In this document: positions 25,929 to 55,031 of the stretch, piece by piece
Position numbering within the stretch: the first letter of the stretch is position 1
Layout of the letters: each line of letters opens with the position of its first letter
DNA from: Rhea pennata
Lineage: Eukaryota > Chordata > Aves > Rheiformes > Rheidae
DNA: 64,000 nt
Reading direction: 5' to 3'
NCBI RefSeq assembly: GCF_028389875.1
Contig: NC_084673.1
Location: 18,947,501-19,011,500, forward strand
Position numbers and translations under genes: made by a program
The notes under the pieces: model-generated
What the model was told of the DNA's origin: nothing
The model's database searches: none
Seen by the model: the letters and a program-made list of their open reading frames with translations, nothing else

Positions 25929-26058
25929 ATGTCGGGGCAGTCCATCACGGACCGCATCACGGCGGCGCAGCACAGTGTCACCGGCTCGGCCGTCGCCAAG
26001 GCCGTCTGCAAGGCCACGACCCACGAGGTGATGGGCCCCAAGAAGAAGCACCTGGACT
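25929..26058 (+). CDS. PICALM-like exon 1 (residues 1-43 plus 1 nt)
   Basis: ATG in context GGAAGATGT, donor GACT|GTGAGT. It encodes [20 protein letters not shown] through GPKKKHLD. K28 and the KKKH cluster at 38-41 are the known PIP2-contacting residues of CALM. The start was chosen because it reproduces the conserved family N terminus. Confidence 0.96.
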
Positions 26059-29000
26059 GTGAGTAGGGGCCGGGGCGGCGAGGTGCGGCCTGCGCAGCCG
26101 TGTGAGCGCCTCTTCGCGGGAAGCGCTCCTTGGCGGAGCGCGCCACATAGCCTAGTGCGCGTTAATCCTGCACCTGGGGCAAAGGTGGATTAAGCGCTGT
26201 GGTTTTATTGTTGTGAGCGACCGGTTTCGGTTTTGAGCGCTCTGCTGTCTGTGCGGCGGGTCCAGCCGTACTTGACATTTCCCGAAATGTCACGGCTTTC
26301 TGTCTTACACCTTCTATAAAACGTTTGAGGTGAAGGAAGGGGAGAAATAGAGCAACACGTCTCCAAAATGGGAGTAGGTTGCTGCCAGTATACTTAAACT
26401 CCTTTCTGTATGTGAAAAAATATAAATGGGCTACTCGCAAAGTTACCCGGTGTCAGTACTGTTGCTTTGTGTCAGTTTTTAATAACTGACTAATAGCTGA
26501 AGTTACTGTTGGTATCGTTCGACTGCTCAGAAGTGCATTGAATCCCTCGAAACTTCCGTGTTGTGAGATACACCCTATCACTGTCCATTAAAAGTAAAGG
26601 TAATGTGTGTGTGTGTGTGTGTGTGTGTTGGTTAGGGTGAGGAAGGAAGTACAACATGAAACTGTATGTTGGCTTCTTCAAAGTCAAGGGAGCTGGCTGG
26701 TGGCTGTGCAGCACTCTTTCAAGTTGATGGTGCCTGAGAGTCTGCTGTTTTAATTTCTCGGAATAGGCATGCTGGGTTAAGTTGGCTGAGGACAGTTTGG
26801 CGCACTGATGCTAATACAGACATCTTGTATGAGAGCCTTTGAGATGAATCAAAAAGTTAAAAATTAAAAACAAGCAAATACATATTTCATTTACTGTTGA
26901 TCTGAATGACTGGAAGCCAGCTACAGTAGTAAATACTGCAGCTACTGTATTGATATTAAAAGCCTTAGGACTGGGTAACTTATCCTTGATTGTTCTTTCA
27001 CCTTTAAGATACTGCTTTTGTTGCACCGTTAGTTATTTTCTGTCTGTGGCAGAACAACTTAATGAGGTAAGCCTTAAGTCCAGAAATGGTAAAATAACAG
27101 GAAGCCAGAATGTGGTGATAGCTTGCTCAATAGCTTAGAAGTTTCTGAAGCTTTCAAGTAGTGTACTCTTTGAAAAATGCTCTTAAAATAGTCTCACCTA
27201 ATATAACCTTACAAAAGAAGAAAATGGAAGAAAATGGAAAAATTCTCAGTGTAATTTGAGAGTAACATAAATGGAGATTGAATTGTGACTATCAAATTCT
27301 GTTGGATATCTCTTGGTACAAACCTCTGTTTAGACTTTAGACCTGCCAGTGTCCTGAAGGACCTCCTGTACTGAATGAGTTCTGTGTTTTTGTATAATTC
27401 ACTCTCTCTGACTTTTGTCCAAGACAAATAAAAAGCATGTTATTGTAATTACTTATCTGAAATGGAGCAACATTTTGATGAGGTGAGAGAAAAGAGGGTG
27501 TGAAATGTGTACTATAAATAGCTCTAGGCTTAAAAAGATTCTAGTGAACACTAGAAAATGTTCATCGCGCATATCCAGACTTCTTAAAATATCTGCTGAA
27601 ATAGCTAGATTGAAGTCTTTGGCACTTACTAATTTTTATTTGTACACCTGCACGCAAAACTTGCTTGTATTAAATGCGAGCAGGTATGATACTAGTTTAA
27701 ACAGTGTAATCTCTAAAAACAATAACACAGTATATTTTCAGAGATACAGTGAAAATGCTTTCTAAGTTAAGTTAAATTAAAGAATAACTTGGATCTACTC
27801 CTTCAACTTGCTCCTTGGTCCCCACATGTGTGTATCATTAAAAATACTGCACTGTCTGGTATTACTTGTAATTGCTTCTCAACAAAAAACTTGACCAAGA
27901 ACATGTTTTTGAGAGTTGCTGCAGTTGCATTCAGTCAGTGCACTCAATCCAGATGAGTTTTGAAAATCCCATCTGCCATATTTTCTTAGCTTTAAGGAAA
28001 GCTTCAAATCACAGTGTGAGTATTAATGGGGAAGACACCACATGTGCACTGTGGAAACCGGTATTCCAGAGTCCAGAAATTTGCCTGGCTACTAACTTCT
28101 TGGTAATATAGTAACACTTTCCTAAAGAGCAAATAACACCTGCCCCCCCCCCCCCAAAAAAAAGAAATTAAGGAATGTGAATGCTTTTTATCAAGTAGTT
28201 CAGTGTCCTAAATAAATTAACAAATCTATTTCTGTAATATTTTGTAATATTCTGGGATAAAATAAAATGTTATACAGCTGTGATTCTCTTTTCCTTAGTG
28301 GACCACTTGAAGTTCTTCTCTTAATTCCTTTCTGCCTCTTAATTTTAGGTTGCAGTAGAATGAGGCTAGATGCTTCTTTTGGTGATTGATATATATCATA
28401 TATATATTCTTGGTTAACTGCTGAAAAGCTATAATAAAAATGAACAAATTAAAGCTGTGGCAAAGCTGGTAATTATCAGACTAGACTTATGTAGACCAAA
28501 ATTTATTAAAACTTTTTTTTCTGAACTTCTATATGAACACAGTAATAAAGAAGAGCAAGCAACTCCTGTTTAATTTGTGTACAGCCCAGTTAAGAAGTGA
28601 ATGGGAGGGAAAGTAGCTAACATTGCTCATTAAAACCTAAAACTACTATGCTGCATATATAGGCTTTGGAAATCCTGGCAAAAGTGGTAATTTGGGTACT
28701 GTAAAGTTGTGTTATGTAACAAAATCAGGCTTCATTCTCTGTGTGGGTGAAAGATCAGGTCTCTGCCAAATCATTGTGGATTTAAATTTTTGCCAGTAAT
28801 ATCAATTTGACTGTCATATTTTTGGTATGTTCTTGTATGTCTGCCCCTTTGTACTCTTGGCAGCTAGAGCTCATGACTGTTAGTGCATTCAGATGCAGTG
28901 TGGTTTTTAGAGATAGGCAAGTTGGGAAACAGCATAAACAAATGCCCTTAGACTCATCTAGGGGCAATAAGGAAGTTCTCTTTAATTTGAAGCTCTTCAT

Positions 29001-32000: not shown

Positions 32001-35000
32001 CATTCTGTCCTGAACTGTCAATATATAATCTTTATGTTTAAATTGCTTATGATAATGTGGTCTTTTTTTTCTGCTCATGCCTAATGAGGTAAATAGCTCA
32101 TTAGGTAGCTGAATTGGTCGTTTTGGTGATGCTGACATCTCGGTATCCAGTTGTCACTCGTATTCCTAGGCAGATATCCTTCTTCAAGTACTTACACAAA
32201 AAAATCCCCCCACATAAGCGGTGGTGCTGCTCTGCAGCCAACAGGCTGCTCAGAAAATTGACTTAAATATCAGATCGCAAAGGAAGCTTTTCAAAGTAGG
32301 TGTTTGTTTTGCAACTATTACCCAGTCACAAAGGTGTACTTTGATCATATCTGAGCCATATTTAGTTCAAAGAGAGAATAAATGCCTAGTCGTAGGGCAT
32401 GTCTCGAGGGGTTTAGAACAGTTCTGGATTTACTTTTTTGCTCTCTTCTCAGCAAGTGACTTAGCTACTGTTCTCAGGCAGGTTTTGTTCCCACGTATCT
32501 GCTGGAGCCTCACCTAGGTTTATGCCAATAAATATTGAGGTAGAGGCTTGAAGGCCTATCTGTGGCCTCACAAGCTAATATTTTATTATTGAGTTATAAT
32601 TGGTCTTTACACAGAGTTTTTATGCAGAAGCTAAAGACCTCCTATGGTCCATAACAAAACACTTAGATTCATGATTATGTCAGTTTAGCTAAGTGGAAAG
32701 CAGTGTGGACTCAAATTCTGTCTCTTAAGTCTCATAGAAAAGAGGCTTAGCAGAGGTTTGCAGTATCTCACTTTAGTGCATGTATGTCAGTACTCAGGCT
32801 TAGATCCTGATTGTAGGATACTTGCTACCTGTTGATCTTATGTGATACAAGTGTCTCAGCTTTTCCTCTCTTCTCTGCTTTTCAGTTTTGGTTAGATTGA
32901 GTGGCTTCAGGAAGCTGGACAGCGAGATTATCTATATTGGCTTTCAGACTGTAATTTGGGGCTAGAGTTTCTGCTGGAGTAGTTTATTTACTGATGATGT
33001 ATTGGGACTCTGTAAAATTGTTGGAATGCTTTTGAAGTTCATGCTCTATCAGTAAAATGCACAGAATTTAAGCACAGAATGTAAAATAATTTCAGTTCTT
33101 TGTTGAAGGAATAATTGAGCTAACACTTCTGGTATGAATCCTTCATGTGCAAACACAAAATAACATGATTATCCTCTTTGAGTATATCTCTCATTGTAAT
33201 GCTTTGACCTTTTTCTTTAATTTAGATCTGATACAGTGCACAAATGAAATGAATGTGAATGTTCCACAGTTGGCAGACACACTTTTTGAGAGAACTGCAA
33301 ACAGTAGCTGGGTTGTAGTGTTCAAAGCTCTAATTACAACACACCACCTCATGATGTATGGAAATGAGGTAAGGCATAGCTTTGTTAAGGTGTCTCTGAC
33401 AATGTTTTAAGAAATTCTTAGTCAATCTATGAAATGTGTACCTCAGGTTTTTTAATGTGTCATTTTCCCCCTCCCCTGCCATTGCCTGTAAAGTACTTCA
33501 CCAGAGAAGAAATAATGCTTGATTATTTCAATACTGAAATATTTCAGTGTTTGTAATTTGACTGCAGGTATCAGGATTGGGTTATGAGGGTGTGCTAGAC
33601 TGGCCTTTCCGGAATGAAGATGTGAAAAACTTCTGATGAGCTTTACTTCATTGGTCTAGTGCTCGTCAGTGAAAGCACAGCAAATGTCTTGTTAGCACTC
33701 CATAACTGTGCAGGCAACCTATTTAACAGATAAGAATATTTATTGGAAGGAGAAGGAATAGGATGACTGGAATATTTGGTCTTGAAAATCCTTGTCCATT
33801 AGGCTAAGTTGTCATATGTTTCTGCCATTAGCATTCACCTGAAACTGTTTTCCAGTGTATTTAGTTTGTTTAAACTATTTCAGCAGTGGTTATGGTCAGT
33901 GTGGTTTTAGAAATGTAATCACATGGTACTAGAAATGTAGTCTCCTTTTCACAGTCTTATATTTAAAAACTAAATTTTCTCCTCTTCAAGTAGCAGTTTA
34001 GTTCTTAACTTGTATGTATCTGTTCTCTTAACTTTTGAGTACTTATGGTAGGTACTGATAATATTGGAATGAACTCTCAGTGGTACTGCTTCACACCCTT
34101 AAACTGCTCTGAAAAGTTAGTGTTGCTTCCCTTCTCCAAATTTCTAGTAACTTAATGAAATGGTCCATAAAACATAGTGTGTTCCACATTACGCTTCTGT
34201 TATTTACATGCTTATGTTGTAGTTAGGAAAGACAGTAGGCTGAAATTAGAGGGTAGCTCAGAAGTGAAATTCAGTGCTCAGAATAACAATAAGGCTAAAC
34301 TGAATACTGTAAAACAGTATGTCTATTTTGATGTCTCTTCTTCAAAGATAGTTCATATCTCTCCACTGGAGTTTGAAAGAAACAAAAGCCAACCGAACCG
34401 TAGAAAAAGAATTTGGAGCTTAGAGTATCCATTCGCCCTTGTGGCATTTTTTCATTGAAAAAAGATTTGGATTTTGCCTGTGCCAAGAATGCACCTCAAT
34501 TTTGAATGGATGCATTTGAAACTTAAACTTATTTGTGTCTGCTGGACTCCTATAGTGTTCCAGCTATTTCTGTGATTTCACGTGGAAAGATGGAACCTAA
34601 GTGTACTGCTCACTTGTGAAATATGAAAGTATTTTATTCTTTAGCAGAAAAAAAAATTATCAATTGAACTTCTATTTTAAGTGCAAGTTATAGAGCAGAG
34701 GTCGGAATGATGTCTGAGCAATTGCTGCCTTGCAGTTTCTTGTTCAGCATGACCATCTTTCTTGAGTTTTGGATGAAGGAGGTCAAACCTCTTCATGTCT
34801 CTGCTTTGTGTAATGCAAATCCTGTTTAGTGGTAAGCCCATGATTGCAACAGCAACCCTTGATAGTTCCCTTGAGTGTCAATTGCAGTAGTAAACAATTC
34901 CCTTTAACTGATCAAAATCATTGCTGCTTGGTAAATTGTTCTTCTCTTGACCTCTCTGTTCAAGTTCTACCTTGTGATTGGTAACAAATCTGAAAACATT

Positions 35001-38000
35001 GATGATCAGGATCTTTTCTTTTTTTTTTTTTTTTTTTTTTAGGTGAGTTATTTGACAGTCCATGATGAAGTACTGAAATAAACTTCTGTAAATTCATAAC
35101 ATGTTTCATCAAAAAATTTCATGTAAACTCTTGAAGTAGATGTAGCAAATGTTCTGCACATCACTATGTAAACAAAAAGTGGTATTCAGAAAGGCCAATC
35201 TCTTTATGCGTCCCCCCACATAATGGTAGAACACTCCTTCAGAGTGTGTTTCAAAATGGTAGCCTAGTTAACATTTTGAACTGGCATTTGGAGGATAATA
35301 GTTAGCCTAGGTCCTGCTAGAATATGATTCAGAATACTAGCTGAATTTCAGATCTGTATATATACCTCCTGAATATCACTGTTCTGTTCAGATCATTTTG
35401 CAACTGTTTCTGTTCTTCTGTGTCTCTTTGAATGCAGTAATAAGATGTACAAAGACCAGATAAAATGCTTTATGAAAAAACAAATATGCAATGCCAGAAC
35501 TATTGGCAGTAAAGCTGTTAATTGTAGACTTGTCAGAACTCTCTCTTACTATAGGCTGAAAATCTATGTGAAATTACCTATGTGATGAGGTAGAACCTGA
35601 TACGTTGGGAAATTATCTGGGAAGAGGGACTTTAGGGAAGGTGAAAGTACTGCTTATGATTAAATCATGCTTGTGAGAAGAGAATTTTTTCTGTCACTGT
35701 GCGAAGCCCTCATTGCAGCTTCCAAAGAGCAGACCTAGTACTGGGGCTGGCTGGACAAGCATGAGTTCTGTGCAACGTACTATAATCCAAACCTGACAGA
35801 CACTTGAAATTCCACCATGAAAACTGAAGTAATAATAGGACCTTCCCTGCTATAGCAGCAGAGGGACTGGGATCAAAGATGTAACAAGCCCCATGTGCTG
35901 TACTGATCATAATGCTATTTTATGGACTAAAATATATATGTAAAGGTGGATGAAAAGGATAGAAATTGACATCATGGGAGATGATGTGTATGGAAGAGTG
36001 ACAGACTTTGAAAACTACTGTGCTATCTGGATTTGTGGTCTCTTACTCTTGCCATGTCTGAGCCAGCTATTGTTTGTCAAAACTTAAATGTTGTTTAACC
36101 AGCTTAGTGCATTGTAATCCTAGACTGATGACACCAACTTTAGTGCTTTTATTCATCACAGTTCTAGAAGCATTATAGTTACTAATTACTCTTTAAACTT
36201 TGTAACTAAACTTGTCACTATCTTCTGCAGCAGCCACGCTTTGAGAGCTGGGATAAATTTGGTGGTATTTTTGTTCTTTTTCTAGCTTGTCTCTTCTAAA
36301 CTACAAGGTTAACCTAAGCAGCTTTCTCTAGGATTACTAGTATTTCGTTCATGGGCAGTGAAGTCATCGTATTTAAACTAGATTTGTATTTTTGCTAAAT
36401 ACTCAGTTCTGCATTTTAACTCATTACATTACAGTTTGTTTTTTGTCTTGTAACCAATTTCTATTAACGGTGGTTACTAGAAACAGTTACATGTAGTTTT
36501 CCGTACTGTGCTTAAATGTTCTAACTCTCAAAAGAACAAAAATGATACTCAACTTTTTCTTCATTAACAGCGCTTTATCCAGTATCTTGCGTCCCGAAAC
36601 ACGTTGTTCAATCTTAATAACTACCTGGACAAAAGTGCCATGCAGGGTAAGTATCTTTTACTGAAGGAAACAACTCTACTGATTTTTGCTCGGTGTTTAG
36701 TACCTGGGTCACTGCATGCTAAGAGACAAATGACTTTACATATAAAAGAGTATTATGGTTTCTATTGCATGAGGCACCAGAGATGTTAATAAATGCAAGA
36801 AATGAGGAGAGTGAGACACTGAGTTACCTAGCTGAGTGGTGGAAGTTTGCCTGTAATACATGTATTGTGCACTTACAGGGCTATAAATTTAAAAAGTGAA
36901 CTCCTAAGCTGCCTAGAATAAACCTGATGAATATTGGCACACTGATCTATTTTACCACTGCATTTTAGTGTTTCGGGAGTGAATATAAACTGTTGAGGTG
37001 CAAGGAATGGTAACTGAATGTGCTGTGTAGATAATGAGAACTCATTCACATCTCTGAGAGGGCTTCTGATTACTTGTCAGTGGTGGAAAGTAGGTTTATG
37101 TGTTTTTTGAGGTATTGAGGATAAGTTAGTGAAGTCTACCACTTTATCAGGAATGTATTTCCAGTGCAATTTCTAGAACACATAATAAGAGCTGTTTGGT
37201 AATTACCTAATATGCTATAAGGCAGTTTCTCTTACAACTGTCATGAATACTTTCTTAGTTTTAGCAAGTTGGGAAGCATATGGCTGTTAACACCATCTCA
37301 AAGTGAAAACAGTGAAGCTCAAGATTCTGGAATGTGCCTGTGAGCATTGTGCCTGAGCAATCTTTTTACGCAGATTGATATGAAATGGACAAATAAGAGA
37401 ATAGTATTAGAGAAAAGATTTGAAAATGTATATCTTCAAAATGTCTTAACTTACAAATGCTTAATTTTTAGGCTATGATATGTCTACCTTCATTAGACGA
37501 TATAGCAGATACTTGAATGAAAAAGCACTTTCATATAGACTTGTAGCAGTTGACTTCACCAAAATGAAAAGAGGGTAAGACTATTACTGCTTTTTTTCAT
37601 CAAGGTTTTCGAGTGGGGAGAAAATACCAGTTGCCCTTAAGCTTGTCATGCACTGGTATTGATTCTGACCCTGCAGATAGTGTAACATTGCTGAAACAAT
37701 ATGTTGAAGTTTTCTGGTAAAAAGTAAACCTGTGTTTCCTACTCTGTAGGATAGATGGAGTGATGAGAACCATGAATGCTGAAAAGCTTCTGAAAACCCT
37801 TCCGATCATACAGAATCAGCTTGATGCACTCCTTGATTTTGATGTAAGTGCATGAAGCTCATTTTTAGGCAATACGCTTATTTTGAAGTGAGATCTTTGT
37901 TATTTAATAATAATTTACTTTCTCATTGCTTTCTTACACAGGCAAATCCAAATGAACTAACAAATGGTGTCATTAATGCTGCCTTTATGCTCCTTTTTAA

Positions 38001-41000
38001 AGATTCCATTAGACTATTTGCAGCATACAATGAGGGGGTTATTAATCTCTTAGGTATGTATGAATCTTTTTAGTTTTTGAGCTTTTGTTGAAGCTGTTGA
38101 GAGAAGTAGAAAATGTAGACAGTTTGACGGTAATTTCCTTATATGTTGTCTCAGATTCGTTACCATTAAATTAAGCCCTTATTAGTCTCAGTGACAACAA
38201 GCATAGCTTAAGCATACCTCCTATAGTTAATCAAAAAAAAAAAAATGATGTGAACCAGTCTGAACTAGAAACTGAGACAAGAGAGAGACTGAGAATAAAA
38301 CAGAAGCACTATGAATTTACAGTGGATAACCTTTGGCAACTGAACTGTAAAAGTATTAGTGAGGTACCTGGTTTGGTTTCCTTAAACTATAATGTTCGCT
38401 GTGCAATTATAGACAGGAACGTTACTTGTTTTTTATATGTTTAATATAGTCACAACATGATTGGCTTCTGATTTCCCATACTTTCTTTATATCATTATTA
38501 ATTTATTTTTAGCCAATTCCTGAATCTAAATGAGCACAGTACATGATATATCGAGTCTGGGTTCCCCTCTTCCCATCCCCCCCAACCCCAGTAAGCTCTT
38601 ATCAAAGATTTATAATGAGGACTATTCAAGCAAATTTCTGAATTAAAATGTCTTCTGATCAGTTTATTTTCCTGTCTATTAATTTTGACTTGGTGAAATA
38701 CCAACAAGTATATAGAGCAAAACCATAAAAAGTGCTAAAAGGAATGGTATCTGCATCTTTCAGGTCAGTTCAGTTTGTGTACCACTTAGTTGTTGTTCTG
38801 ATGTCTTTTGGATATTGTCCAAAGCATAATGATACGGGTCTAAAAATGTAAATACATAGCAGGAATATTTTCCAACAATAATTTCCCTCATTGCCAGCTA
38901 ATAAGCTGAGTTCCTTTAAAAAAAAAAAAAAAAAAAAACTCATACCTAATTAAACAGTTGAAGTGATTAAGCGATTCATATCCTTGCTTAATAAAGCTTT
39001 GCATAGTATTCTAGTATACTGAAATAAGAAAAGTAATATTTTTCTTTTGACTGATTTTATTACAAAAGATGTCAGATATTCATATCCATTTTGGAATTCA
39101 TCGCTTTAATGAGTTGTTTCTGTCTCTTCTGTCCCTGAAGCTTGTCTCAAATTAGCATTTATAATTCTGTGCCAGCTTTTTGTCAGGGAGGGTGTTAACT
39201 TACAAGAGTTTATTTGCATCCTCAGAAAAATATTTTGATATGAAGAAGAACCAGTGCAAAGAAGGCCTGGATATTTACAAAAAATTTCTAGCCAGAATGA
39301 CCAAATTGTCAGAATTCCTCAAAGTAGCAGAGGTAAATAAATCAACATCTATGCGGCGGGTATCATTTAGGCATCTGTTCTGGTACAGTGATACATATTC
39401 ATAATCATGTAACTTCACAAACATTACTCCGTTTACTTAACTTTACTATACAAAATAAGCATTTTAGAGGCTAGATGTTTTAAAGATTGTTTATGCTCAT
39501 TATTGTAAAGGGAGATTCTAAGGCATCCTTTTCATTTGTCAGACAGAATAAACATTTTTGTGTAAAGTGCTATAAATTTGAGTGGTCCAAAATGAATGGA
39601 CTGGATGTTAGTATTTTTACAGTACTCTTTTACTGTAGTTGCTCAAAGGGGAGGACTTCCAGTAAGCAATGTAGATATTTCGAATGCTTTCAATAAGTTT
39701 TTCTGCATGAAAAAAATAAGGTTAGCTGAAAGTTTTTGTTTTGAGATGCAATGCAATGTAATGTACTTTAGATTTCTAAGGCATGTTCTTAGCTAAATTC
39801 ATACCGATTCAGAAAGTTATAAATATCCCTTTTTAATATCTTAGTCTCTATGTAACATTCAGACCTCACAGTTTTTATTTTCATTGCCACTGCATGTAGT
39901 AATGTAATTTTTTCCCCCTCCCCTTTTTTGTAAACTCAGCAAGTTGGAATTGATCAGGGTGACATTCCAGATCTTACTCAGGTCAGTGTACATTTCATAC
40001 TGATTTAACCCAATTTGTCCTTTGTGTTCTTAAAGGTTTGTGTGCATCATAATCAACATTCATCTTGAAGATGTATTCTCTCCCATATATTTATATATGG
40101 GAAATGCATCTGCTCACCTTTTCATGGATCAAATGTACTCAATGCTTAAATATTTTGCAGCTGTTAATAAAGTTTTTGATTGTTTAAAGCAATAGCACTC
40201 AAAAAAGCTTATGTAAGAACTTCTGCTTTTTTGTCACATGGGATTCATTATGGCTTATAAGTACATAAGCATCTTGCATTGTCTTGAGGAAAACCTTTCA
40301 TTTCACTGTAGCACCATGTCTTCCACTAAATATATATAAAGGTTACTATTTGCTTGTTCAATCAAGAATCTGCTTCTCCCCTACCCCCATACTTGTTTTT
40401 TTATCGGTACTCTGGCTTCAACAGCGCTCAGCAATGAGGAGAGTGCTTAGGAATAGTTTGTATACTGGAAAATTTAGTCTAAAAGATGGAATGCAGGGGA
40501 GTATCCTCTAGTGAGGATAAATAGAGGAGCAAATGAGAAGTGAGAGATGATTTGACTTGATCAACAGAAAACACTGGTAGTCCAATTAAGTGTACAAAGC
40601 TGTTCTTTTCAAGTTTTTTCTGTCATAATTTCTAACTTAGCGTCATCCCAAAATGACTGTTGGTACTTGACATCCTTTCAGTAGTGTGGAATAAACTGGT
40701 GGATAGAATAAGTGACGATCTGTCAGGAGAGAGGAGTGCCGTAGAGCTGTAGTGTACTCAGGCTGTTGAAGTGGGCTCTTTGTGAAACAGTCAGTCTAAT
40801 ATATAACTTTTCATGAACTATAATGTCTAATCTCATGCTGTCTAAATTTCACAGATTAACCATGTCAATATATATCTTTTGGGAAGATATGCCTAAATTT
40901 AATTCAGTGTGTTTTTATATGAAGTCGAATCTGAACCTCTCCTCATTGTTCATTGTTTTCTATGATACAGTTAGCATCTCAAATTAGTATTTTGTAAAAC

Positions 41001-44000: not shown

Positions 44001-47000
44001 TTAGATGTCTCAAGTTCCAGCTGAAGTGTTGAGCAAGACATTTAAATGCTAGACTTCGTGCTAGAATTAAGTGGAGTGAAGCCTTTTTCCTTTAATCTTT
44101 TTCATTGTTTATAAGATAACTTAATGTTAGGAGCTTCTCATGGGTAACACTTTCTTGACCAAAAAAACCTAAGTTGATTTGAAATGATATTGCTACTTTC
44201 TATTATGTTTTATGGTACAAAAGGCTTTGGTGTAACTGAGTTTATTGTGTAATCATGTATTGAATAGCTACTCGATCTGTAGAACTGTTGAGACAAAACT
44301 TTGGTCAAATTTTTATTCCACTGTTATCAAAGCTGGCATACTGCTGTGGTCATAAATGTTTCCAGTGCAAGCCTTTGTGAAGATGTGATTGAAAGAAAAA
44401 AGTGATTGTTGGCTTTTTATTGTTATGGGAGGGGGGTGGGGACAACAAGGCAAAGGCGTCCTGTGGGTACTCTTGCAAATTTAAGGGAATTAATCACTTG
44501 GTTACTGTTTTTTATCTTAGCATAGCAAACACTGTTTCCTTCCATCCCCCTACCTCAATTCAATTTACATGCATAGAAGCAGACCTAGTCTGAGAGGATC
44601 TTTATTTCATGTCTGTGTGATACCACTACTTCTAGTAGACCACAGCTCTGTAGCTAGAGCTTGGGTGTACAGGATGAGGAGAAGGAGGAAAAAAAATAAG
44701 TACACAATTATTGTGGGATTTTATTTGGTTTCTTTAAATTGGTGGATGGGAAACTAATCTGTGTGCTAAACAGTGATAATATTTTTGTCTAGAAGCAGTC
44801 TTTTATGAGTACTTTAACTTTAGGCGCCCAGCAGCTTGCTTGAAGCATTGGAACAGCATTTGGCTTCTCTGGAAGGAAAGAAAACAAAAGAAGTCTCTGC
44901 TGCCAGCCGGTGAGCACCAAATGAATGACAGTGATGTATTTACTTAAGTCTTGTCGTCTTACTAAGCAGCTTCTGTATTTGACCATTTGAGGTTCTCCTT
45001 TTGGATTTCGTTCACTTAAAAGTGTATCTTTGTACAAGAATATATGATACGTATATTGAGGAGTTGTCTGATAACGTAATCGCACTTGTTGAGTAGATAT
45101 CTGTTGTGTATCTGTCTCTGTCAGATGTCTTATTGTGCTGTTATAAACCATTGAGCTGAGGCCTATGTATTATTCTTTTCACCTTTTACCAATTTCTTTC
45201 TTGTAAGACTTTTGAGATTTATGTTTTGAGGTTGGGGATTTTTGTTTATTACTAAACCCCAGACAGGCTGCTGTTTACCTCTTCTTGTCAGTTATATACC
45301 TCTCAAGCCATGAATTTGTCTTAACCTGTTATAAAAATTTCAAAACTGCTTCTCCCTAAAACTGCCAAGTTAGCTTGATGATTTGTGCTGACAAGTATTG
45401 CAGTATTCTTTCTGTTAAGATCGGTATCCATATGTATGAGCAGCACCTCTGACTTGGAGGTACTGTGTCTGACTTAAGAGATCTCTTGTGGCATACACGC
45501 TCCCCCTCAGAAATGTGGGTATATACTGACAGGCATATCAGTGTAACGTACATTTGTGAATTGCTGTCCAGCATGACAGACTTTTGAAAAGCATCTGAGA
45601 ACTTACTTTCCACAGTATTCTGCTAAACTGGTACGTAGGGAAGAACTTCTGTGCTTTGCTTCCGATTGTCCGTATAATGCGTACATACAAGCTTTCCATG
45701 CCTCCGCTACTTGAAAGAATAAAGTTCTAGTCTATATGACATTTAAAGTAAAAACAAAATAGTTACATTCTGCACTTTCCAGTATCTACTCACTGAAACT
45801 TGAGGCATTGTTCGTTCACCACACTGCCTTATTATTGATTTATCTACTTTTCTGTACGAAAGAGTAAAGTAAGAACAGATATGAAAAAGATAAGGCACTT
45901 GATGCTTAAGTAAGTAGTGATGTGCTGAGAGGTTTTCCTTAATTTAACTTTTTAAAAAAATATCTCTACTTCTAGAGCTAGTGCCCTGTCCAGCGCTGTT
46001 TCAACGCTTGCCAGCACAGGAATGTCATTTAGCAGGATGGATGAGAAAGAGAAGCAGCAGGCATTAGAGGAGGAGCAAGCTAGACTGCAGGCACTTAAGG
46101 TACTGTATCTTTGAAAAGATTATATTCCAAAATTTTTCACTAGATACAAGTTAAGACCAGAGTTGGTTTAAGCTAATATGTGTGAGGGGATATTAACACT
46201 GAGAGGCAAAGACTTTACTCTGTAGGTGTGTTGGTTGCCAATGTATGGTGACCCTTCTACCCAGGAGTATGATTTGAATAGCTGGCACCTGAAGTGGGTC
46301 ATTTATACTCTTTTCATGATTGAATTCTGTATCTCAATGATTTGTGAAACGGACATACAAGAGTTCTAGGTCTTGTCACCACAGCTGACCATACAATGTT
46401 GCTATTATAGGACTGTTTATTGCTAGATGAGAATTTTTTTTTCCCTTGTGAGGCGTGGAATGATGATTTAGCATGATTCTTCAGCCATGTTGCTTGTAAT
46501 GAGAACACAAGCTGTTTTTCTGTCTATACTTAACTGTTCTCATGTATGATTTTACAGCTTAGCTTGCAAAACCATTTCAGATCTTGAATATTTAGGTATA
46601 ATCTATGGATTTTAAGTCCATACACATCTGAAAGAAAACCCAGTGTGTTCTCTTGTCTTGGTTCCTTAATGCTCTCTTTCCTTTGTTCACTCATTGCTAC
46701 TTGTTGAGTTGTTTTCCTAGCAAGGTTCTTCTCCTAAGGCCTCAGTCCTGGACCTTCTAATTTTTACTTATTTATCACTTCCTGAGGAAGTGCACAGTAC
46801 AATCTAGAACAGAACAAGATACTTTCTCTTACTGAAAGCTGAATCAGGACTGAAGAGTTGATAAATTAATGCAATTAAATTTCAAACTATTTGTCTTACC
46901 TTTCAGGAACAGCGATTAAGAGAGATTTCTGTGGTATCAAATTCCATTTCTACATCAGCATCTCCAAGCACTTTATCAGGAAAAAGTGTGAATACCACTG

Positions 47001-49435
47001 CAGCTGTTGACCTTTTTGCAGTACCAGCACCCACAACAAATAGGTGAGAGAGCATTCGCTTTCTGAAGCAAGCATAAATGACGCTGGCCAGGTAACTCTG
47101 CAGTCAAGTGCAAAGCACAAATCCTAGTTATGGGATATACTCTTCACAAATAACCTTTTGCTGATGATTTCCTGGTTATTCACATGAGTTTTGGTAGTGT
47201 TCCACAATAAGAAGTGCTTAATTACCTGGTCTTGTTGTATACCAGTATTCTTGACTGGCTCATAGTCAAAAGAAAAAAGTGAGGTTGGTACGAGTCTGTG
47301 TATAGCATGAGACTGTAATGCCTTTTATGTATCTTCACCTTCCCCCTCCTCTGTTCCTCCTCAGCATGCCCAACCTTTCTAGTGATCTTTTTGATCTTCA
47401 GCCTGCATTTGTTCCAACTGTACAGAGTACTCCAGCTATAGCAACATCAGCAAGCAATGCATGGGGAGGTAAGCAGATACTATTGATTTTACTGTCTAAA
47501 TAATGGGTGTAATTAAAATACAGGAGTATTATCTCATGATAAAGCACAGGTTTGTGCTTAACTGAATCTATAGCTTAAACCTTAATTCCTCTGCACCCAA
47601 ATACCTCTATCCTCGATAGAGTATAAAACGAGTCATCTGAAAGCTCTGGCAAACTCTTCCAGAGATTTTATGTATTTTTAAAAATGCGTTATAGTAATGA
47701 CAATGTGCAGTGGATGGAATGAAGGAGGTACTCAACAAAAGGGAGGGGAAGACTAATTGTATCCAGTAATGAAAGTCCAAATATGCTGAGAAATAGGAAT
47801 GAAGCAGATGTAACTGAGAAGATGCTGTACTAGTATTTCCTTTCAATAAGAAATGTAATGCATTCTTCATTAAAAAGGTATTCATAACTTCAGGATGCCT
47901 ATTGCAAAGCTGCTGTTCCTGTTTTTTATACCTTCGCCAATTCCTTCAAAAAACAATCATGATAAGCATAAAAAAAATACACGTCAAACTGAAATAAGGC
48001 AAAGGTAACGCTGTTACAAGTGTTAGTGTAGTTAGTATAGGTGGATCCAGTATGCTTAAGTGCTATTTAAAAGGCATATTCCTGAAGCCTAAAAAATAGT
48101 CCTTGACTATTCTTTTTGTTGATAAGCATTCTGTTCTTCTCCCCTTCCTACCTAATGGCTGTATTAAAATTCTATTTTCCCTAAACAGAAAACTGTTAGA
48201 CATTTTTCATCTGAAACTAAGAATCTGTATCTTAACAGGGCTAGTCAGTAGATGAAAAATCTACTACTTCTAGAATTCTTATGTACAGTCATTTCAGTCT
48301 ATTTTTCTTCTCTGCTATTTGTATTGTGTGTTTTCTTTTCTTTACTTCTACTGCGTCTGAAAGGTCCTTTCTCGTCCTCAAACGGTTGTGTTGGTTCTCC
48401 ACCTCATCTGGACATCTTTGACATGAAGCCAGTTGAAGAAGCTGTAAAATCTACCACCCCTTTCATCAGTTCTACCTTTTCCTCCAAACAAACAGTGGAA
48501 CTGTTCAGTGGTAAAAACAAAAACAAAAAAAAAAAAACCTAATTTCTTTCCAACTGGAGATAATACTACTAATCAACTGTGTTGTATAGTCTTTTTGTGG
48601 TTTGAGCCAATCTTCAATTTTTGTTAGCAAGTGGAAATAGTATAATAATTCCTGAAGTATTAACAAAACCATTTTTTTGCTAAAGTTTTATTTCTAGAGT
48701 TGAAAGAATCCATTATCTTGTTCAGCTTGTCCAAGCTAGGCATCCTAAGACTTGTTTCTCAGCTAGAGTTTTTGCTGATTTCTGTTAAACTGGAACTTTT
48801 TGCAGTGACAGGCAATGCAGGAGTTAACTAGAGTTAACTAATACTTTTCAAATTGGCTGAAAAAAAAATTTCTTTATTCCTAAAAAATTTTTATAGTTGC
48901 AGACTCTTTTGGATTTTTCTCTTCCTTTTCTCTCTTAATCTGATCTTATTTTCTTCCCTTTTTTCATGAAGATGATTTTAGTGGTCATAAACCTGCATAT
49001 ACCTCTGTGTATCATCCTCTGACTGTTGATGGTAATTTGATTTTTAATATTCTAGTTTCACTGTAGTGAGTGGTATCTATTCAGTGGGTGTACCTGATTT
49101 ATTCTGAATTTCTTGTTTAGGGTTTCCTCTTCATTCAGCTCCTCCAAGTACCACCTCTTCAGCAATTAATGCAGACTTTGATGCTGTTTTTGGAGGAAAA
49201 TCTACTGCACAAGAGTACAGGACTACTAGTGGTAAAAAAAATACCTTAAAATGACTTGCCTCCTGCAGGCTACTTTTGCCTGAAGTTTAACATAACTGCC
49301 ATTACAATGCAGAAATTAGTAACTTAGCCCATTTGCAAGCTGAATAACATAGGACTGATAAGATAATAGACAATCAGTTCAATTGTAGTTGTTTGGTTTA
49401 AAATTTGCTCTGAGTAATCTTACACTGTGTAATAA

Positions 49436-49470
<35 letters not shown>

Positions 49471-50011
49471 GGGGGGGAATAAACCTCAAATGTGGCCCAT
49501 CGGATTTTTGTTAATGGGTAAGATTGTGTTTTACTTCTAGTGCTTATGACTTCAGTGTTTTCTCTTGATAATGTGATAATAAGTTCCCCAGAGTTTGTTG
49601 AGAGGCATTGTACTTACACTTAAGTAAGCAAAGTGTAACTTTGCATGTTTTTTGTTTGCATTTTATTTGTATGCTTTACATAAAGAATAATTTAGTTATC
49701 ACTCTGCTGGTTGATACTATTTTGCATCAAAGTTCTTGTGAATGTATAACAAAGGAATTCTTGTGTACATTGAAGATATTAGTATTACTGTGAAACCATG
49801 GCTATATTTCTTATAAGAAATTATACTTTTTTCCCCTGAGTTTTAGGAGGGATTTAGCTTAATTTAAAAATACTACCAGTTACTGTTGAAGTAAAATTGG
49901 ACAGTGCACTAGAATATAATATTCCAGAAAGAATGAGAGGTTCAACTATGCTTGTACCTAAGCCTTAAACACTTCTGGCATGTTGATCTTCCACATATAA
50001 ATATTCCCTCC

Positions 50012-50042
<31 letters not shown>

Positions 50043-53000
50043 AAAAAAAAAAAGCCCTACTGATAGTGTTGTATAAGGAAGATGCCTCCGTGACTTCTGG
50101 ATTTCTTTCAATAAATGCATTTTAACTGTTTTGGTAACAGTTATTTTCTTTATGTTCTTGCTTTTATGTCTTGGTTTAGCTTTTACTCTTCTAGATGATG
50201 TATTGCAACCCACAGTACCACCACAAAGTCAAAGAACTGCTGTAGCCAGTCAGCAAAGTGGAAAAATTCTGGCAAATGATCTTGATTCTTCACTTGCTAA
50301 TCTTGTGGGGAGTAAGTATGAAACTTTAAAAGTATGTTTTCCTATTTGCTACTCAAAACAAGATTTTCCACTCCCCCCCCCCCCAACCTAAATATATTCA
50401 GTGATTTTTATATGAGAATTTGTTTCTTCCCCCTTCTCCCCCCTCCCAGATCTTGGCTTTGGAGGAACTCCATCCAAAAAGTAAGTGATATATGTATTTA
50501 ATACTCATGTATGACTGGTAAGACTGATAATCTGTGGTACATTTTGCTGGCACTGACATAGCAAGATTCTCAGCTCTGGAAAGTAATCTGCTATCAAGAA
50601 CGGTGTTAAGACAATGAGTTAATATGGGCCGTTGTTATAACACAGGCAAACATAGTAAGTGACATAGTATGCTTTTGTCTTGCAGTTGCAGTATTATTTA
50701 AATATTTCTGTGAGCAGCCATAAAAATGTCTTTTATAAAAACTCTTAAGTCGTTGTACTGTATAGTGCAGTGAGTGATAGCGAGTTTTCTTTTAATAAAA
50801 AACAGAGCCCTAGAACTCAATGCTCGCTAGAGTGCAGATACAAGCAGTTACTGAAGTTAAATCTTGAGTATTTCTACCACCTGTAGATTTCAGCTGCCTA
50901 CATCTGTTACAAAGCGTGTTTTTTTTTCCTGTTTTTTCAGTATATTGTTGTTACTATTTACCTGCTGGTCCTAATTTGAAATCTAATATTATGGTTTCGT
51001 TCTAGATCAGATATGCAGTGGACCCAGCCTACAGAGAAAAAACTTACTGGTGGAACAAACTGGCAAGCAAAAACAAGCACATCAACTACATGGAACCCTA
51101 CTCCCTTACCCACTATTCCACATATGGTAACTTCTGTGCCATTTAAATCATACTTCTTACTAGCAAATGCCTTTTTCCCTTCATGAATTAATTTAGTAGG
51201 AATAGCAAAGGTTGCATTGGACAAGATTGAGGAAAAACTTGCCTGTAAGACCACTTCACGAACTGAATGAGATGGAGATATTAGTATACTTTATTTCCTC
51301 TCACAGGAAAGGAAGTAGCCTTTCACTTGTGACAGTTCTAAACTCCTGAGTTTTCTTTCCCTGATTGTTTTAATTGAAAAAAAACCTGACCATCCTTCCC
51401 CTTCCAATGCAAAGATGCACCTTTAAGAATCTTAAGAACCTGTTTCAAGGCCAAATAAATACTGTTCCTTTTGGATTTTGTTCCCTCTTCTATTCAGTAC
51501 CTGAAAAGCTACTGCATCTTAACTCCTTCAAGGCACCTTAATTAATAATTCAGGTAGCACTTTAGAATTTCTGATTGTGCTTAAGAGCATCTTCATCACA
51601 CTTTTGAACAGTTATAGTGTAAATGATAAAATTAATTAATTTGCAGAATGTTGGTTTTCTGGAGCAGTATTTGTAGGCAACTGAGTCTTGTGCTATGTTT
51701 TTAAGAGTTTTTTTTTCCAGTATTTTCTATTCTGATATTTCTACAAATACCAGTCACTTCTACTTCCCTCCAAGGCAGCTGTATTTCAGAATGTTTACTT
51801 CAGCTTTATGTACGACTATAGTAATTGCAGTATTTGCTGTGAGTTTTGGACTGCTGTCTGACTTTATTGCCACTGCAAGTAGTTTTGTCCTAGATCTTTT
51901 TTCTTTTAGCTTATATGGGTATGCTCAGTCAAAATTCACAAAACTAAATAGACTATTAAATCCAGATTTGAACTTGAAACAGAAATAAAAAGATTCAGAT
52001 TAGAGAATATCTTACTTGCATAGTACTTGTATGATTTCAGGTTATAATTTGTCCATGAGATTTTTGAGACCATAAAAATCTTTCTGTCCCCTCTTGGTGT
52101 TTAGAACATGTTATGTTAGAGTGCTGATGTGTTCTGGTCTTCGGAAGATCGGATTTAGGGCACCGTAACACATATTAGCTACTGTATGTTTGGATTGTGT
52201 GGTGGGTTTTTTCTTTCATGCATTCTTATGCCTTCTGGTTTAAGCTTATGTTTTGAGTGCTTTATGCCATATATCAGCTCACTTACCCGCCAGAAAGTCT
52301 AACAATTACTGGCCAAAGAACTGCCTTAGCTATGAGCTATCTTTTGAAATTGATGCCCCAGCTGCTGGAATGGCCTAAGTGTCCTGACTTGGTCTGTGGC
52401 ATTCAGGGACTGTAGTAATCCTCAGCCTCACATATAATCTTTCATAGTGAAGTATTCTAACTAGCACTTCAGGTTTTTCTAAATATAATTAATGAGCACT
52501 ACTTAATTGCATGGCAATATGAAGTGTATGCATCATTGTGGCTAAAAACATAACTTGATGTAAGTTAACCCATAACCTCGGTTAAAGTGTTTTTTGTTTC
52601 TTGTTCTTTGTATTGTGATATATTGCAGGCATCAGAATTAAGTTTAGTGTGTTAGCAATATTTTGGCTGACTGAACATTCATTGCTATTTGTTTTTTGGG
52701 CTGACTGGTCACTGGCTTCCTTGTTTTTCTATACATTTATTGCACATAATAGGAGGAAGGAGGACTGTTGCATGCCTTCCAAAAAGCTTCTCACCCAAAT
52801 GTTTATGCAAGCAATACACTCAAAATGTGTGCAAATTTAGTAAAAGTTCTATTTTTGCTGTAAATCTCATCAGGGAGCCTACCAAAGTTACCAGGTTCAA
52901 TTGCTGATGTTACTGTCCATGTACCTTTTTTCCTCTGCTTGAATTTTTCTAATCAGTGGCTTTAGCATAGTTGTAGGTAGTTTTGGTACTGGATTTTAGT

Positions 53001-54406
53001 CCATCTTTTGGTTAGAATTTCAGTTTGACCTCTTAAATAACTTTCTGTGCTTACTCCTTTTGCCCTGCCAGAATGGAGTACATTATCCTGGATATGTAAG
53101 TCAATTTCTTGTAAATTGAGTGTTTAAAAAAAAATACTTTGTACTGTTTCGTGCGAGTTACTAGTATGCATGAGCTTATCTGAGACCTCAAAATTTTTTT
53201 GATTGAAGGTACCTGCTCCTATTGCATACCCAGTGACCACACCTCAAGTGCCTCTATATGGAATGGTAAGGAACTTGCCTGTTTCATACTCTTTAATTTT
53301 TTCTTTTTTTTTTTTTTTTTTTTTTTGCGCACTTCAGTGGATGTCATGACAAGCATTATTGTTTGATTTGTCCTGCAGCTTGTGTATTGTTTCATGAGGT
53401 TGATACTGTGTGAAATTGGATAGCTTTTTCACTTCGTTCATTGGAAGACATTATTCTAAACTTTATACAGCAAGTTTTCTAAACAGCCGTGACTTAACTA
53501 ACTGTGTGTGTATCCATGTTTTTGTTTTTACTGTGCTTATAATGGGGAAAAAACTTAGCTTCTAGAATCAAGTGGATTTGTCTGTACTACTTGTCTGTCA
53601 TCTGTTTCCCTTTTTCTTGTAGGTACCTCCTCAGATTGGAGCTGCTCCTTTGATGGCACCCCAGTCAATGATGTATACACAACCTGGTTTAAGGTCAACA
53701 AACCCTTTTGCACCTGTTTCTGGAACTCAGGTGAAATGTTCTCTTCAATCTTGGACTCATTGAAACTTCAGTCTTAGTAAAGAAACCAAATATCTTGTCT
53801 TGTGATTGGCTATTAACATCTATTTCTGCCTCTGAGAAAGTGAGGGGTTCCTCAGTCAGGGGCAGCAGGCTTTTGCAGGTGAGAAGGAATATACAGATGA
53901 AAGCATGCAGCCATAGGAAGTGAGGAAGAAAGTACAAATGGAGAGCAACGGATCAGAAAAATAATGGCTAGCTTCTCACTGTGACGGTGTTAAGAAAAAG
54001 GGAGTGGAGGATGTCATAGGAAGTCTTAAGTTCCAGATTCATTATCTGGATACTTGGTTCAATCATACTGACTATGGCAGTAGTGAAAGGTTTCTGGAGG
54101 ATGGGGTTGAGCTATGAAGTAAAGAAAGATATGGACAGGAGACTGTTCAAGTGAAAGGAGTTGTGTGCCTCTGTCACCCAGATACGTCTAGATACGTTGT
54201 TGTTAATGTTCTTTGAGATACTGGGGGGAGGGAAGTTCCACTTTGTTTCGAGGTGGTTTTTTCTTTTAAATGATGAAACACATAGTCCCAACTTACAGAT
54301 AACAAGGCACTTGTGTAGATACATACCTCTGAAACACTGAGAAAACATGTTATGAAAGTGGCATTAACAATATGTAATCTCTACTTTACAGATACAGTTT
54401 ATGTAA
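25929..54406 (+). CDS. PICALM-like clathrin assembly protein (CALM/AP180 family paralogue), complete, 22 coding exons, 687 aa
   Basis: An endocytic adaptor that binds PtdIns(4,5)P2, clathrin, AP-2 and R-SNAREs at coated pits (family knowledge). Exons: 25929-26058, 33226-33368, 36571-36646, 37472-37574, 37750-37843, 37942-38053, 39226-39332, 39940-39981, 44824-44909, 45976-46099, 46907-47043, 47365-47468, 48364-48510, 48972-49031, 49121-49231, 50180-50311, 50450-50480, 51006-51126, 53072-53095, 53209-53265, 53623-53730, 54392-54406. They sum to 2064 nt and every junction keeps frame. The ANTH domain spans about residues 19-290, with lipid-binding K28 and K38-K39-K40-H41. The disordered tail has DLFDLQ (392-397), DIF (436-438), DFDAVF (507-512) and NPF (674-676), and ends IQFM. 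It starts [16 protein letters not shown], as in PICALM. Many ANTH substitutions, a divergent tail and a GAB3-VBP1 location argue for a paralogue rather than canonical PICALM. Human PICALM is 652 aa, from memory. Confidence 0.95.
26604..26628. repeat. (GT)n microsatellite
   Basis: About 12 GT dinucleotides, half a kilobase into intron 1 of the PICALM-like gene. Confidence 0.95.
28143..28163. repeat. C13 followed by A8
   Basis: Homopolymer pair in intron 1. The same C-run-then-A-run structure recurs on a larger scale at 50010-50053. Confidence 0.9.
31733..31950 (+). mobile_element. CR1 non-LTR retrotransposon, 3' end fragment
   Basis: The sequence carries the typical avian CR1 3' end: GGAACAGGTTGCTCAGAGAG, TGTGGAGTCTCCTTCTCTGG, CGCCTGGACACAACCCTGTC, GGTTGGACTAGATGATCTCC and finally the ATTCTATG terminus. 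CR1 copies are usually 5'-truncated and lack poly(A), as here. It lies in sense orientation in intron 1 of the PICALM-like gene. The left border is approximate. It is decayed and noncoding. Confidence 0.92.
33226..33368 (+). CDS. PICALM-like exon 2 (ANTH)
   Basis: Acceptor CTTTAATTTAG, donor GAG|GTAAGG. The split codon T|AT gives Tyr44, then [14 protein letters not shown] through HHLMMYGNE. Differences from human PICALM (from memory) include NVP for NIP, RTAN for RTTN and KAL for KSL. Confidence 0.96.
35019..35040. repeat. T22 homopolymer
   Basis: Run of T residues ending in AGGTGAG, so it superficially resembles a polypyrimidine tract plus AG in intron 2. No coding exon follows. Confidence 0.9.
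36571..36646 (+). CDS. PICALM-like exon 3 (ANTH)
   Basis: Acceptor CATTAACAG, donor CAGG|GTAAGT. It encodes [15 protein letters not shown] then [10 protein letters not shown]. Human PICALM has SNFLDKSGLQ here, so this short exon alone shows several substitutions. Confidence 0.96.
37472..37574 (+). CDS. PICALM-like exon 4 (ANTH)
   Basis: Acceptor AATTTTTAG, donor GG|GTAAGA. It encodes [18 protein letters not shown] then [15 protein letters not shown]. Human PICALM has VSYRQVAFDFTKVKR at this position, from memory. Confidence 0.95.
37750..37843 (+). CDS. PICALM-like exon 5 (ANTH)
   Basis: Acceptor CTACTCTGTAG, donor GAT|GTAAGT. It encodes [18 protein letters not shown] through LDALLDFD, 31 codons after completing a Gly codon. 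Confidence 0.95.
37942..38053 (+). CDS. PICALM-like exon 6 (ANTH)
   Basis: Acceptor TTTCTTACACAG, donor TTAG|GTATGT. It encodes [20 protein letters not shown] through EGVINLL, among the most conserved stretches of the CALM/AP180 family. Confidence 0.96.
38918..38938. repeat. A21 homopolymer
   Basis: Run of A residues in intron 6 with no recognisable attached element. Confidence 0.9.
39226..39332 (+). CDS. PICALM-like exon 7 (ANTH)
   Basis: Acceptor TTGCATCCTCAG, donor GAG|GTAAAT. It encodes (E)[19 protein letters not shown] through SEFLKVAE. This helical region carries R-SNARE (VAMP) contacts in CALM. Confidence 0.96.
39940..39981 (+). CDS. PICALM-like exon 8 (14 codons)
   Basis: Acceptor GTAAACTCAG after a C/T-rich tract, donor CAG|GTCAGT. 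It encodes [14 protein letters not shown], phase 0 at both ends. IPDLTQ is the wording I recall from SNAP91, where human PICALM has IPDLSQ. Confidence 0.96.
43721..43858 (+). mobile_element. SINE: tRNA-Ile-derived head fused to a CR1-like 3' tail (TguSINE1-like)
   Basis: The head (43721-43792) reads as a tRNA-Ile relative. It has an A box TAGCTCAGTTGG (43726-43737), anticodon loop CTAATAA (AAT) and a perfect B box GGTTCAATCC (43771-43780). The tail (about 43793-43858) reads GGTTGGACTAGATAATCTTC, then GGTCCCTTACAACCTTACTG and ATTCTATGATTCTGG, the same 3' end as the CR1 at 31.7 kb. The 5' acceptor arm does not pair well with the 3' arm, so it is a retroposon and not a working tRNA gene. tRNA-Ile/CR1 chimeric SINEs are described in passerine birds (TguSINE1; from memory). 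It sits in sense orientation in intron 8 of the PICALM-like gene. Confidence 0.88.
44824..44909 (+). CDS. PICALM-like exon 9 (end of ANTH)
   Basis: Acceptor ACTTTAACTTTAG, donor CCG|GTGAGC read as CG|GTGAGC. It encodes [20 protein letters not shown] then TKEVSAAS, the junction between the ANTH domain and the flexible tail. Confidence 0.95.
45976..46099 (+). CDS. PICALM-like exon 10
   Basis: Acceptor TCTCTACTTCTAG, donor AAG|GTACTG (weak after +3). It encodes (R)[18 protein letters not shown] through the charged [11 protein letters not shown] segment, likely helical. Confidence 0.94.
46907..47043 (+). CDS. PICALM-like exon 11
   Basis: Acceptor TTACCTTTCAG, donor AG|GTGAGA. It begins [10 protein letters not shown] and ends [12 protein letters not shown], Ser/Thr-rich, with a DLF motif at residues 374-376. 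Human PICALM has EQRLKELAKK at the start. Confidence 0.94.
47365..47468 (+). CDS. PICALM-like exon 12
   Basis: Acceptor TTCCTCCTCAG, donor GGAG|GTAAGC. It encodes (S)[15 protein letters not shown] through SNAWG. DLFDLQ (392-397) resembles the DLL-type clathrin/AP-2 binding motif DLLDLQ of PICALM. Confidence 0.94.
48364..48510 (+). CDS. PICALM-like exon 13
   Basis: Acceptor CGTCTGAAAG (weak pyrimidine tract next to the AG), donor AGTG|GTAAAA (weak, inside an A-rich stretch). It encodes [19 protein letters not shown] through KQTVELFS. Phase 1 at both ends and 147 nt long, so it can be skipped in frame. Confidence 0.92.
48972..49031 (+). CDS. PICALM-like exon 14 (20 codons, likely alternative)
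   Basis: Acceptor TTTTTTCATGAAG, donor GATG|GTAATT. It encodes (D)[19 protein letters not shown]. It occupies the place of the alternatively spliced DVHLSISSDV exon of human PICALM, but the sequence is unrelated. Phase 1-1 and 60 nt, so optional inclusion keeps frame. Confidence 0.85.
49121..49231 (+). CDS. PICALM-like exon 15
   Basis: Acceptor TTTCTTGTTTAG, donor AGTG|GTAAAA (weak). It encodes [19 protein letters not shown] then [28 protein letters not shown] corresponds to DFESVFGNKST of human PICALM. Confidence 0.93.
49436..49477. repeat. (CT)n tract followed by T and G runs
   Basis: About 14 CT units, then T8 and G7, in intron 15. On the transcript this is a CU-rich tract of the kind bound by PTB. 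Confidence 0.92.
50010..50053. repeat. C23 directly followed by A21
   Basis: Two long abutting homopolymers in intron 15, about 125 bases before exon 16. The complementary strand is T21G23, able in principle to form G-quadruplex structures. Length may be unreliable in an assembly. Confidence 0.93.
50180..50311 (+). CDS. PICALM-like exon 16
   Basis: Acceptor TCTTGGTTTAG, donor GGGA|GTAAGT. It encodes (A)[18 protein letters not shown] through [12 protein letters not shown]. The [10 protein letters not shown] core is conserved in PICALM and SNAP91. Confidence 0.94.
50373..50384. repeat. C12 run in intron 16
   Basis: C tract between exons 16 and 17, followed by a second C/T-rich stretch (about 50429-50447) serving as the exon 17 polypyrimidine tract. 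Confidence 0.9.
50450..50480 (+). CDS. PICALM-like exon 17 (31-nt microexon)
   Basis: Acceptor after a C/T-rich tract (CCCCCTCCCAG), donor AA|GTAAGT. It completes Asn and encodes LGFGGTPSK, matching the NLGIGNGTTK position in PICALM. Confidence 0.93.
51006..51126 (+). CDS. PICALM-like exon 18
   Basis: Acceptor GGTTTCGTTCTAG, donor ATG|GTAACT. It encodes (K)[18 protein letters not shown] through [17 protein letters not shown] is a family hallmark (EKKLTGGSNWQ in PICALM). Confidence 0.95.
53072..53095 (+). CDS. PICALM-like exon 19 (24-nt cassette microexon)
   Basis: Acceptor TTGCCCTGCCAG, donor TAT|GTAAGT. It encodes NGVHYPGY, matching the optional eight-residue NGMHFPQY insert that I recall from some human PICALM isoforms. 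Phase 0-0, so skipping keeps frame. Confidence 0.9.
53209..53265 (+). CDS. PICALM-like exon 20
   Basis: Acceptor TTTTTTTGATTGAAG, donor ATG|GTAAGG. It encodes [19 protein letters not shown], aligning with APPVMAYPATTPTG of PICALM. Confidence 0.93.
53304..53326. repeat. T23 homopolymer
   Basis: T run in intron 20, 39 bases after the exon 20 donor. Confidence 0.9.
53623..53730 (+). CDS. PICALM-like exon 21 with NPF motif
   Basis: Acceptor TTTTTCTTGTAG, donor CAG|GTGAAA. It encodes [20 protein letters not shown] then [19 protein letters not shown] at 674-676 is the EH-domain binding type and is shared with PICALM (PPNPFGPVSG). Confidence 0.95.
54392..54406 (+). CDS. PICALM-like exon 22, terminal codons IQFM and stop
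   Basis: Acceptor TCTCTACTTTACAG, then ATA CAG TTT ATG TAA. IQFM is the exact PICALM C terminus; SNAP91 ends differently. This supports assignment to the PICALM side of the family. Confidence 0.94.
   Translation: MQFM

Positions 54407-54996: not shown

Positions 54997-55002
<6 letters not shown>

Positions 55003-55031
<29 letters not shown>
55003..55031. repeat. (TA)n microsatellite
   Basis: About 14 TA units within the presumed 3' UTR of the PICALM-like gene. Confidence 0.93.

Follow-up and report, generated by a model that had tools for sequence, protein, structure and literature searches.

An intact third CALM/AP180 family gene between GAB3 and VBP1 in Rhea pennata, probably a genome-duplication sister of PICALM

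The window analysed in this study is a stretch of 64,000 nucleotides of the Rhea pennata genome (C11:18947501-19011500), and it contains a complete PICALM-type gene on the plus strand, at 25929-54406, with GAB3 and VBP1 as its neighbours (Table 1). The exons were located by tblastn with a human PICALM sequence and were refined by splice sites. The model obtained has 21 exons joined in a single frame of 667 codons plus stop, with no internal stop and with GT-AG borders at all 20 introns; a stop-free run of 667 codons has a chance of ~2e-17 under an independent-base model of the same composition. The first exon lies in a CpG island, the putative promoter, with a CpG observed/expected ratio of 1.03-1.17 against 0.41 for the window. 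Hence the strand, coordinates and frame of the intact gene described in the original prediction have been recovered, and so have the EKKLTGG and IQFM sequences, the quoted ANTH differences from human PICALM, which are present in the translation, and the two flanking genes. Further VBP1 exons follow on C11 just past the window. A second CpG-rich stretch (observed/expected 0.8-1.31), in which no gene was recognised, occupies 9900-11400 in the ~22 kb gap from GAB3 to the PICALM-type gene, and intron 8 contains a weak tRNA-like Rfam match at 43726-43784 (29.1 bits, gathering score 29), perhaps a repeat, at which ARAGORN calls no tRNA.

The 22 exons and 687 codons proposed earlier do not correspond to our model, but the figure is reproduced on adding a possible 60-nt cassette exon at 48972-49031, which has been singled out solely for this reason. 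A strict scan for further cassette exons gave no candidate. A permissive scan of the introns gave at least 11 phase-compatible segments in introns 1, 2, 8, 11, 13 and 20 (best five per intron), and among those listed this segment ranks third (splice score 7.7), behind 35043-35069 (10.5) and 43604-43657 (8.2). No clear homologue of it was found by tblastn in the C1 PICALM and C3 SNAP91 stretches.

Table 1. Genes, exons and associated features of the window (positions from the first letter of the window).
Feature	Position	Strand	Basis or remark
GAB3 3' coding exons, neighbour	1541..4148	+	tblastn with human GAB3; genome-wide search
CpG island over first exon, putative promoter	25300..26200	.	GC 0.69-0.83
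Exon 1, start codon (25929), curvature helix	25929..26058	+	splice-refined model
Exon 2, ANTH	33226..33368	+
Exon 3, ANTH	36571..36646	+
Exon 4, ANTH	37472..37574	+
Exon 5, ANTH	37750..37843	+
Exon 6, ANTH	37942..38053	+
Exon 7, ANTH; F223, D224, M244	39226..39332	+
Exon 8	39940..39981	+
Exon 9, end of ANTH	44824..44909	+
Exon 10	45976..46099	+
Exon 11, DLF motif	46907..47043	+
Exon 12, DLFDL motif	47365..47468	+
Exon 13, GPF for PICALM DPF; DIF for PICALM NPF	48364..48510	+
Possible extra 60-nt cassette exon, giving 22 exons and 687 codons	48972..49031	+	phase-compatible, splice score 7.7
Exon 14, FDAVF	49121..49231	+
Exon 15	50180..50311	+
Exon 16, end of export-signal-like LANLVGNLGF	50450..50480	+
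Exon 17, EKKLTGG	51006..51126	+
Exon 18, 24-nt cassette NGVHYPGY (PICALM counterpart on C1, NGMHFPQY)	53072..53095	+
Exon 19	53209..53265	+
Exon 20, NPF	53623..53730	+
Exon 21, IQFM and stop (54406)	54392..54406	+
VBP1 exon 1, neighbour, own CpG island	59783..59878	+

The encoded protein matches the Pfam ANTH model with 261.6 bits (cut-off 21.5), and the related ENTH model passes as well (64.6 against a cut-off of 24). Its best solved relatives are rat and human CALM, followed by Drosophila LAP, and the match with rat CALM (1hf8) has an E-value of 2e-173. The PIP2-contact residues K28, K38 and K40 are identical, and H41, which we take to be part of the CALM PIP2 patch, is also kept. The N-terminal helix (residues 1-18) is identical to that of PICALM at 17 of 18 positions with L6I as the sole change, and the PICALM-like N terminus and lipid residues stated in the original prediction are thus borne out. 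Residues L219 and M244 of the R-SNARE site are retained together with the ubiquitin contacts F223, D224 and L274, while D276 is replaced by E, likewise in SNAP91. These lysine, SNARE-site and ubiquitin-contact residues have been named for CALM (PMC8648300), and residues 1-18 have been described as its membrane-curvature helix (PMC4406947).

The tail has diverged much further, as had been claimed, with only 173 of the 368 gap-free aligned sites (47%) identical to bird PICALM. It carries two DLF motifs, DIF, FDAVF and an NPF near the end, which are motifs of the clathrin/AP2 type. In comparison to PICALM, DPF is replaced by GPF, the first NPF by DIF, DLL by DLF and FESVF by FDAVF, and neither DPF nor DLL was found after residue 280. 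The sequence LANLVGNLGF stands in place of LANLVGNLGI, which is the CALM export signal according to a review (PMC4194041). The same review states that CALM, despite its two NPF motifs, has not been observed to bind eps15 or eps15R, so having one NPF fewer may be of little consequence. A 24-nt cassette exon of the form NGxHxPxY is common to PICALM (C1 near 209912415, minus strand) and the window gene (53072-53095), which suggests that this alternative-splicing option predates the duplication.

The genome of 1.27 Gb in 180 contigs was searched for other members of the family. The ANTH profile gave 13 matches on C1, C3, C11, C15, C17 and C20; those on C17 and C20 presumably belong to HIP1-type genes, and the single weak match on C15 (C15:16970531-16970845, 27.9 bits, in a 240-aa open frame) is perhaps an epsin-type ENTH gene. 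In the search with the window protein, 39 of the 40 matches were on C11, C1 and C3, and the remaining one, on C17 with an E-value of 1.7, is not credible; this search scores the best candidates and a very diverged fourth copy could escape it. Pattern searches of bacterial and archaeal contigs (14 matches) and of viral contigs (2 matches), made to allow for host contamination, gave no relatives.

The canonical PICALM was found on C1 (coding span C1:209901018-209970296, minus strand), and its ANTH domain differs from that of rat CALM at only one of 289 sites. Head to head with it, 49 kb away, a sequence starting at C1:210019586 matches EED exon 1 over 44 aligned columns (E 2e-8), so the suggested check for a PICALM beside EED in the same genome gave a positive result; of the EED exons, the C1 stretch examined reaches exon 1. 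The borders of the C1 PICALM exons were placed by reference to the exons of the window gene and of human PICALM, and the exon 2 acceptor was chosen for frame and homology, another AG having scored slightly higher. A possible alternative last exon of this gene (C1 209902122-209902033, minus strand), placed before the IQFM exon, ends in DPFAELSLQDFL, which resembles the C terminus of SNAP91 (DPLADLNIKDFL). A motif search of window positions 53001-60000 (plus strand) found no such SNAP91-like last exon. SNAP91 is present on C3 of the same genome. With canonical PICALM on C1 and SNAP91 on C3, the window gene is therefore a third member of the CALM/AP180 family; it is neither beside EED nor the sole PICALM of the genome, as a one-to-one PICALM orthologue would be.

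Comparison with the C1 gene has shown that the exon lengths are equal in 15 of 21 exons and equal modulo 3 in all 21. Along with these, the third gene shares with PICALM/CALM (C1, rat and human) the residues of the helix (except for L6I), those for PIP2 and SNAREs, the NGxHxP cassette and the EKKLTGG and IQFM ends, whereas it differs in chromosome, in coding span (28 kb against 69 kb) and in D276, DPF, the first NPF and DLL. In the ANTH part the third protein is identical to bird PICALM at 258 of 289 sites (31 differences) and has 32 differences from rat CALM. It shares 233 sites with bird SNAP91/AP180, including the states A23, D182 and T268, and differs at 56; SNAP91 also has a long alanine/threonine-rich tail ending in DLNIKDFL, and the PICALM-type exon 10 gave no match in it (C3) at E 0.05 or better. 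Drosophila LAP (PDB 1hx8), used as outgroup, is identical at 198 of the 289 aligned sites, with 91 differences and an insertion in the ANTH domain. With LAP as reference, the sites split two against two group the third gene with PICALM at 8 positions and with SNAP91 at 4, and PICALM with SNAP91 at 1.

The FastTree phylogeny of six sequences joined the third gene to PICALM with support of 0.947, and bird and rat PICALM to the exclusion of the third gene with 0.972. Alternative placements were compared by likelihood with 1000 RELL resamplings and no bootstrap. Nesting the third gene in bird PICALM cost 12.0 log units (KH p 0.033, RELL 0.013, SH p 0.107), joining it to SNAP91 was 6.6 units worse (KH p 0.112, SH p 0.264), and placing it outside both was 7.8 units worse (KH p 0.063, SH p 0.199), so that with these six sequences the SH test rejects none of the three. 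A position inside the bird PICALM clade, which had been named as the result that would show a relocated PICALM, is consequently disfavoured by the KH test but not rejected by the SH test. At sites 23, 182 and 268, the third protein keeps the state of SNAP91 and LAP, and bird and rat PICALM have another state in common. A placement on the PICALM side and a duplication before the bird-mammal split are favoured by these sequence comparisons; six sequences prove neither.

The chromosomal surroundings were examined with four families (TENM, GAB, AMOT and RAB39), and all four have paired members on C11 and C1, the families having been chosen for human members on X and 11q and not as a random sample. 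Locus names such as TENM1 and GAB2 on C1, C4, C11 and C14 are presumed ones, given by location rather than by trees. Teneurins lie at C11:17.82-17.89 Mb and C1:211.79-211.93 Mb, with others on C4 and C14; GAB3 lies beside the third gene, a second GAB at C1:212.35-212.40 Mb and a third on C4; angiomotins lie at C11:20.31 Mb and C1:204.63 Mb, with a third on C9; and RAB39 genes lie at C11:19.02-19.03 Mb and C1:199.04-199.05 Mb (78-98% identity), four more matches of the RAB39 search at 33-44% identity being taken as other Rabs. In the order TENM, GAB, AMOT and RAB39, the distances are 1.1, 0.02, 1.3 and 0.02 Mb from the third gene on C11 and 1.8, 2.4, 5.3 and 10.8 Mb from PICALM on C1. Two of the three families having more than two members have one on C4; no CALM-type gene was found on C4 or C14 among the best candidates scored in the genome search with the window protein.

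Linkage of these families to both loci favours an ohnologue over an isolated old duplicate, and the ohnologue or old duplicate claimed in the original prediction is thus supported by the second PICALM on C1 together with the four-family linkage. We consider it probable that the third gene is an intact CALM/AP180 member which arose as the sister of PICALM through block duplication in the two rounds of vertebrate genome duplication (2R), its product being most likely a CALM-like adaptor. The date of the duplication is best explained as 2R. The main rival is an old single-gene or segmental duplicate of PICALM outside 2R (e.g. one dating from early jawed vertebrates or early tetrapods) which landed beside GAB3, and this we regard as unlikely. 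It would agree with the position of SNAP91 on C3, outside the linkage group, and with the synonymous divergence. Between the third gene and PICALM the pS is 0.65 (fourfold differences 48/94), and it is exceeded by 13 of the 16 usable presumed-2R paralogue comparisons (3 GAB, 12 TENM and 1 AMOT, two of three AMOT comparisons being left out for wrong frame) and undercut by 3; the comparison values, 0.73 for GAB3-GAB2 and 0.63 and 0.77 for TENM1-TENM4, come from short exons and are rough, as some paralogue exons include a few codons of intron sequence. The two SNAP91 pairs gave larger values (0.75 and 0.81). Such a duplicate is, however, hard to reconcile with a C11/C1 pairing repeated in every family tested around both genes, and teneurins are described as products of a 2R quadruplication (PMC6428715).

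That the window gene is the genome's own PICALM, moved here and evolving fast, or else a young copy confined to birds, is suggested by its PICALM-type exon structure and tail and by the SH value of the nested tree, but the PICALM adjoining EED exon 1, the likelihood deficit and KH value of that tree and the SNAP91/LAP states at the three sites given above argue against it. Further, of 36 sites differing between bird and human PICALM, the third protein has the bird state at 9, the human state at 5 and neither at 22, and we hold this origin to be extremely improbable. A decaying or unexpressed relic might account for the low identity of the tail, yet the 667-codon open frame, the intact introns and the CpG-island start speak against decay, as does a pN of 0.062 in comparison to PICALM, which gives a pN/pS of ~0.1 in the ANTH part; a relic is hence very improbable.

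On the 2R reading, the product of the third gene most likely functions as an ANTH clathrin adaptor, as judged from its conserved residues, and its binding and expression are predicted. The putative amphipathic helix at the N terminus, together with the K28/K38/K40/H41 patch, would attach it to curved PIP2-rich membrane, the ANTH groove with L219 and M244 would take in small R-SNAREs, and the unstructured tail may recruit clathrin, AP2 and EH-domain proteins via DLF, DLFDL, DIF, FDAVF and NPF. In this manner SNARE sorting would be coupled to clathrin and AP2 with partner strengths altered in comparison to CALM. With DPF and one NPF lost and less than half of the tail identical, the strength of its partner binding or the tissues that use it are probably not those of PICALM.

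PICALM ranks as a major adaptor in endocytosis and is also a risk gene for Alzheimer disease. The third gene is an additional member of the already known CALM/AP180 family, and public databases likely list it under a LOC-type name. According to a review (PMC6912373), mammals possess two genes of the family, and LAP of Drosophila is an invertebrate member in single copy; we infer the absence of the third gene from mammals, and its loss there, from this literature. Picalma, Picalmb, Picalm and Picalm-like have been named in an eel transcriptome (PMC8834532), and a 'clathrin assembly protein-like (picalm)' gene is discussed in a salmon mapping study (PMC6377724), so fish carry extra picalm copies; teleost picalma, picalmb and picalm-like resemble the present case, by their names, as CALM genes beyond two. 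In a turkey table RAB39B, VBP1 and GAB3 are consecutive, followed by SMARCA1 and TENM1, and the available part of that paper names nothing between VBP1 and GAB3 (PMC8470100). No description of the third gene was found in a literature search that covered mostly titles and abstract openings and few subscription papers.

This study has highlighted a conserved third family member which offers a natural experiment on the indispensable parts of CALM, with the ANTH domain hardly changed and the tail motifs rebuilt. When PICALM is knocked out in birds, this second gene of the CALM type may buffer the outcome, and the locus should be used to assign the 'picalm-like' genes of other vertebrates to ohnologues. 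We lean towards a wider reading in which PICALM has had a partner in the X paralogon, a third adaptor of the CALM type, from the start of the jawed vertebrates; birds would have kept it under strong constraint with altered AP2/EH motifs, and mammals would have lost it. If this is true, the gene would represent a form of CALM specialised for cargo or tissue which has been left out of mammal-based textbooks.
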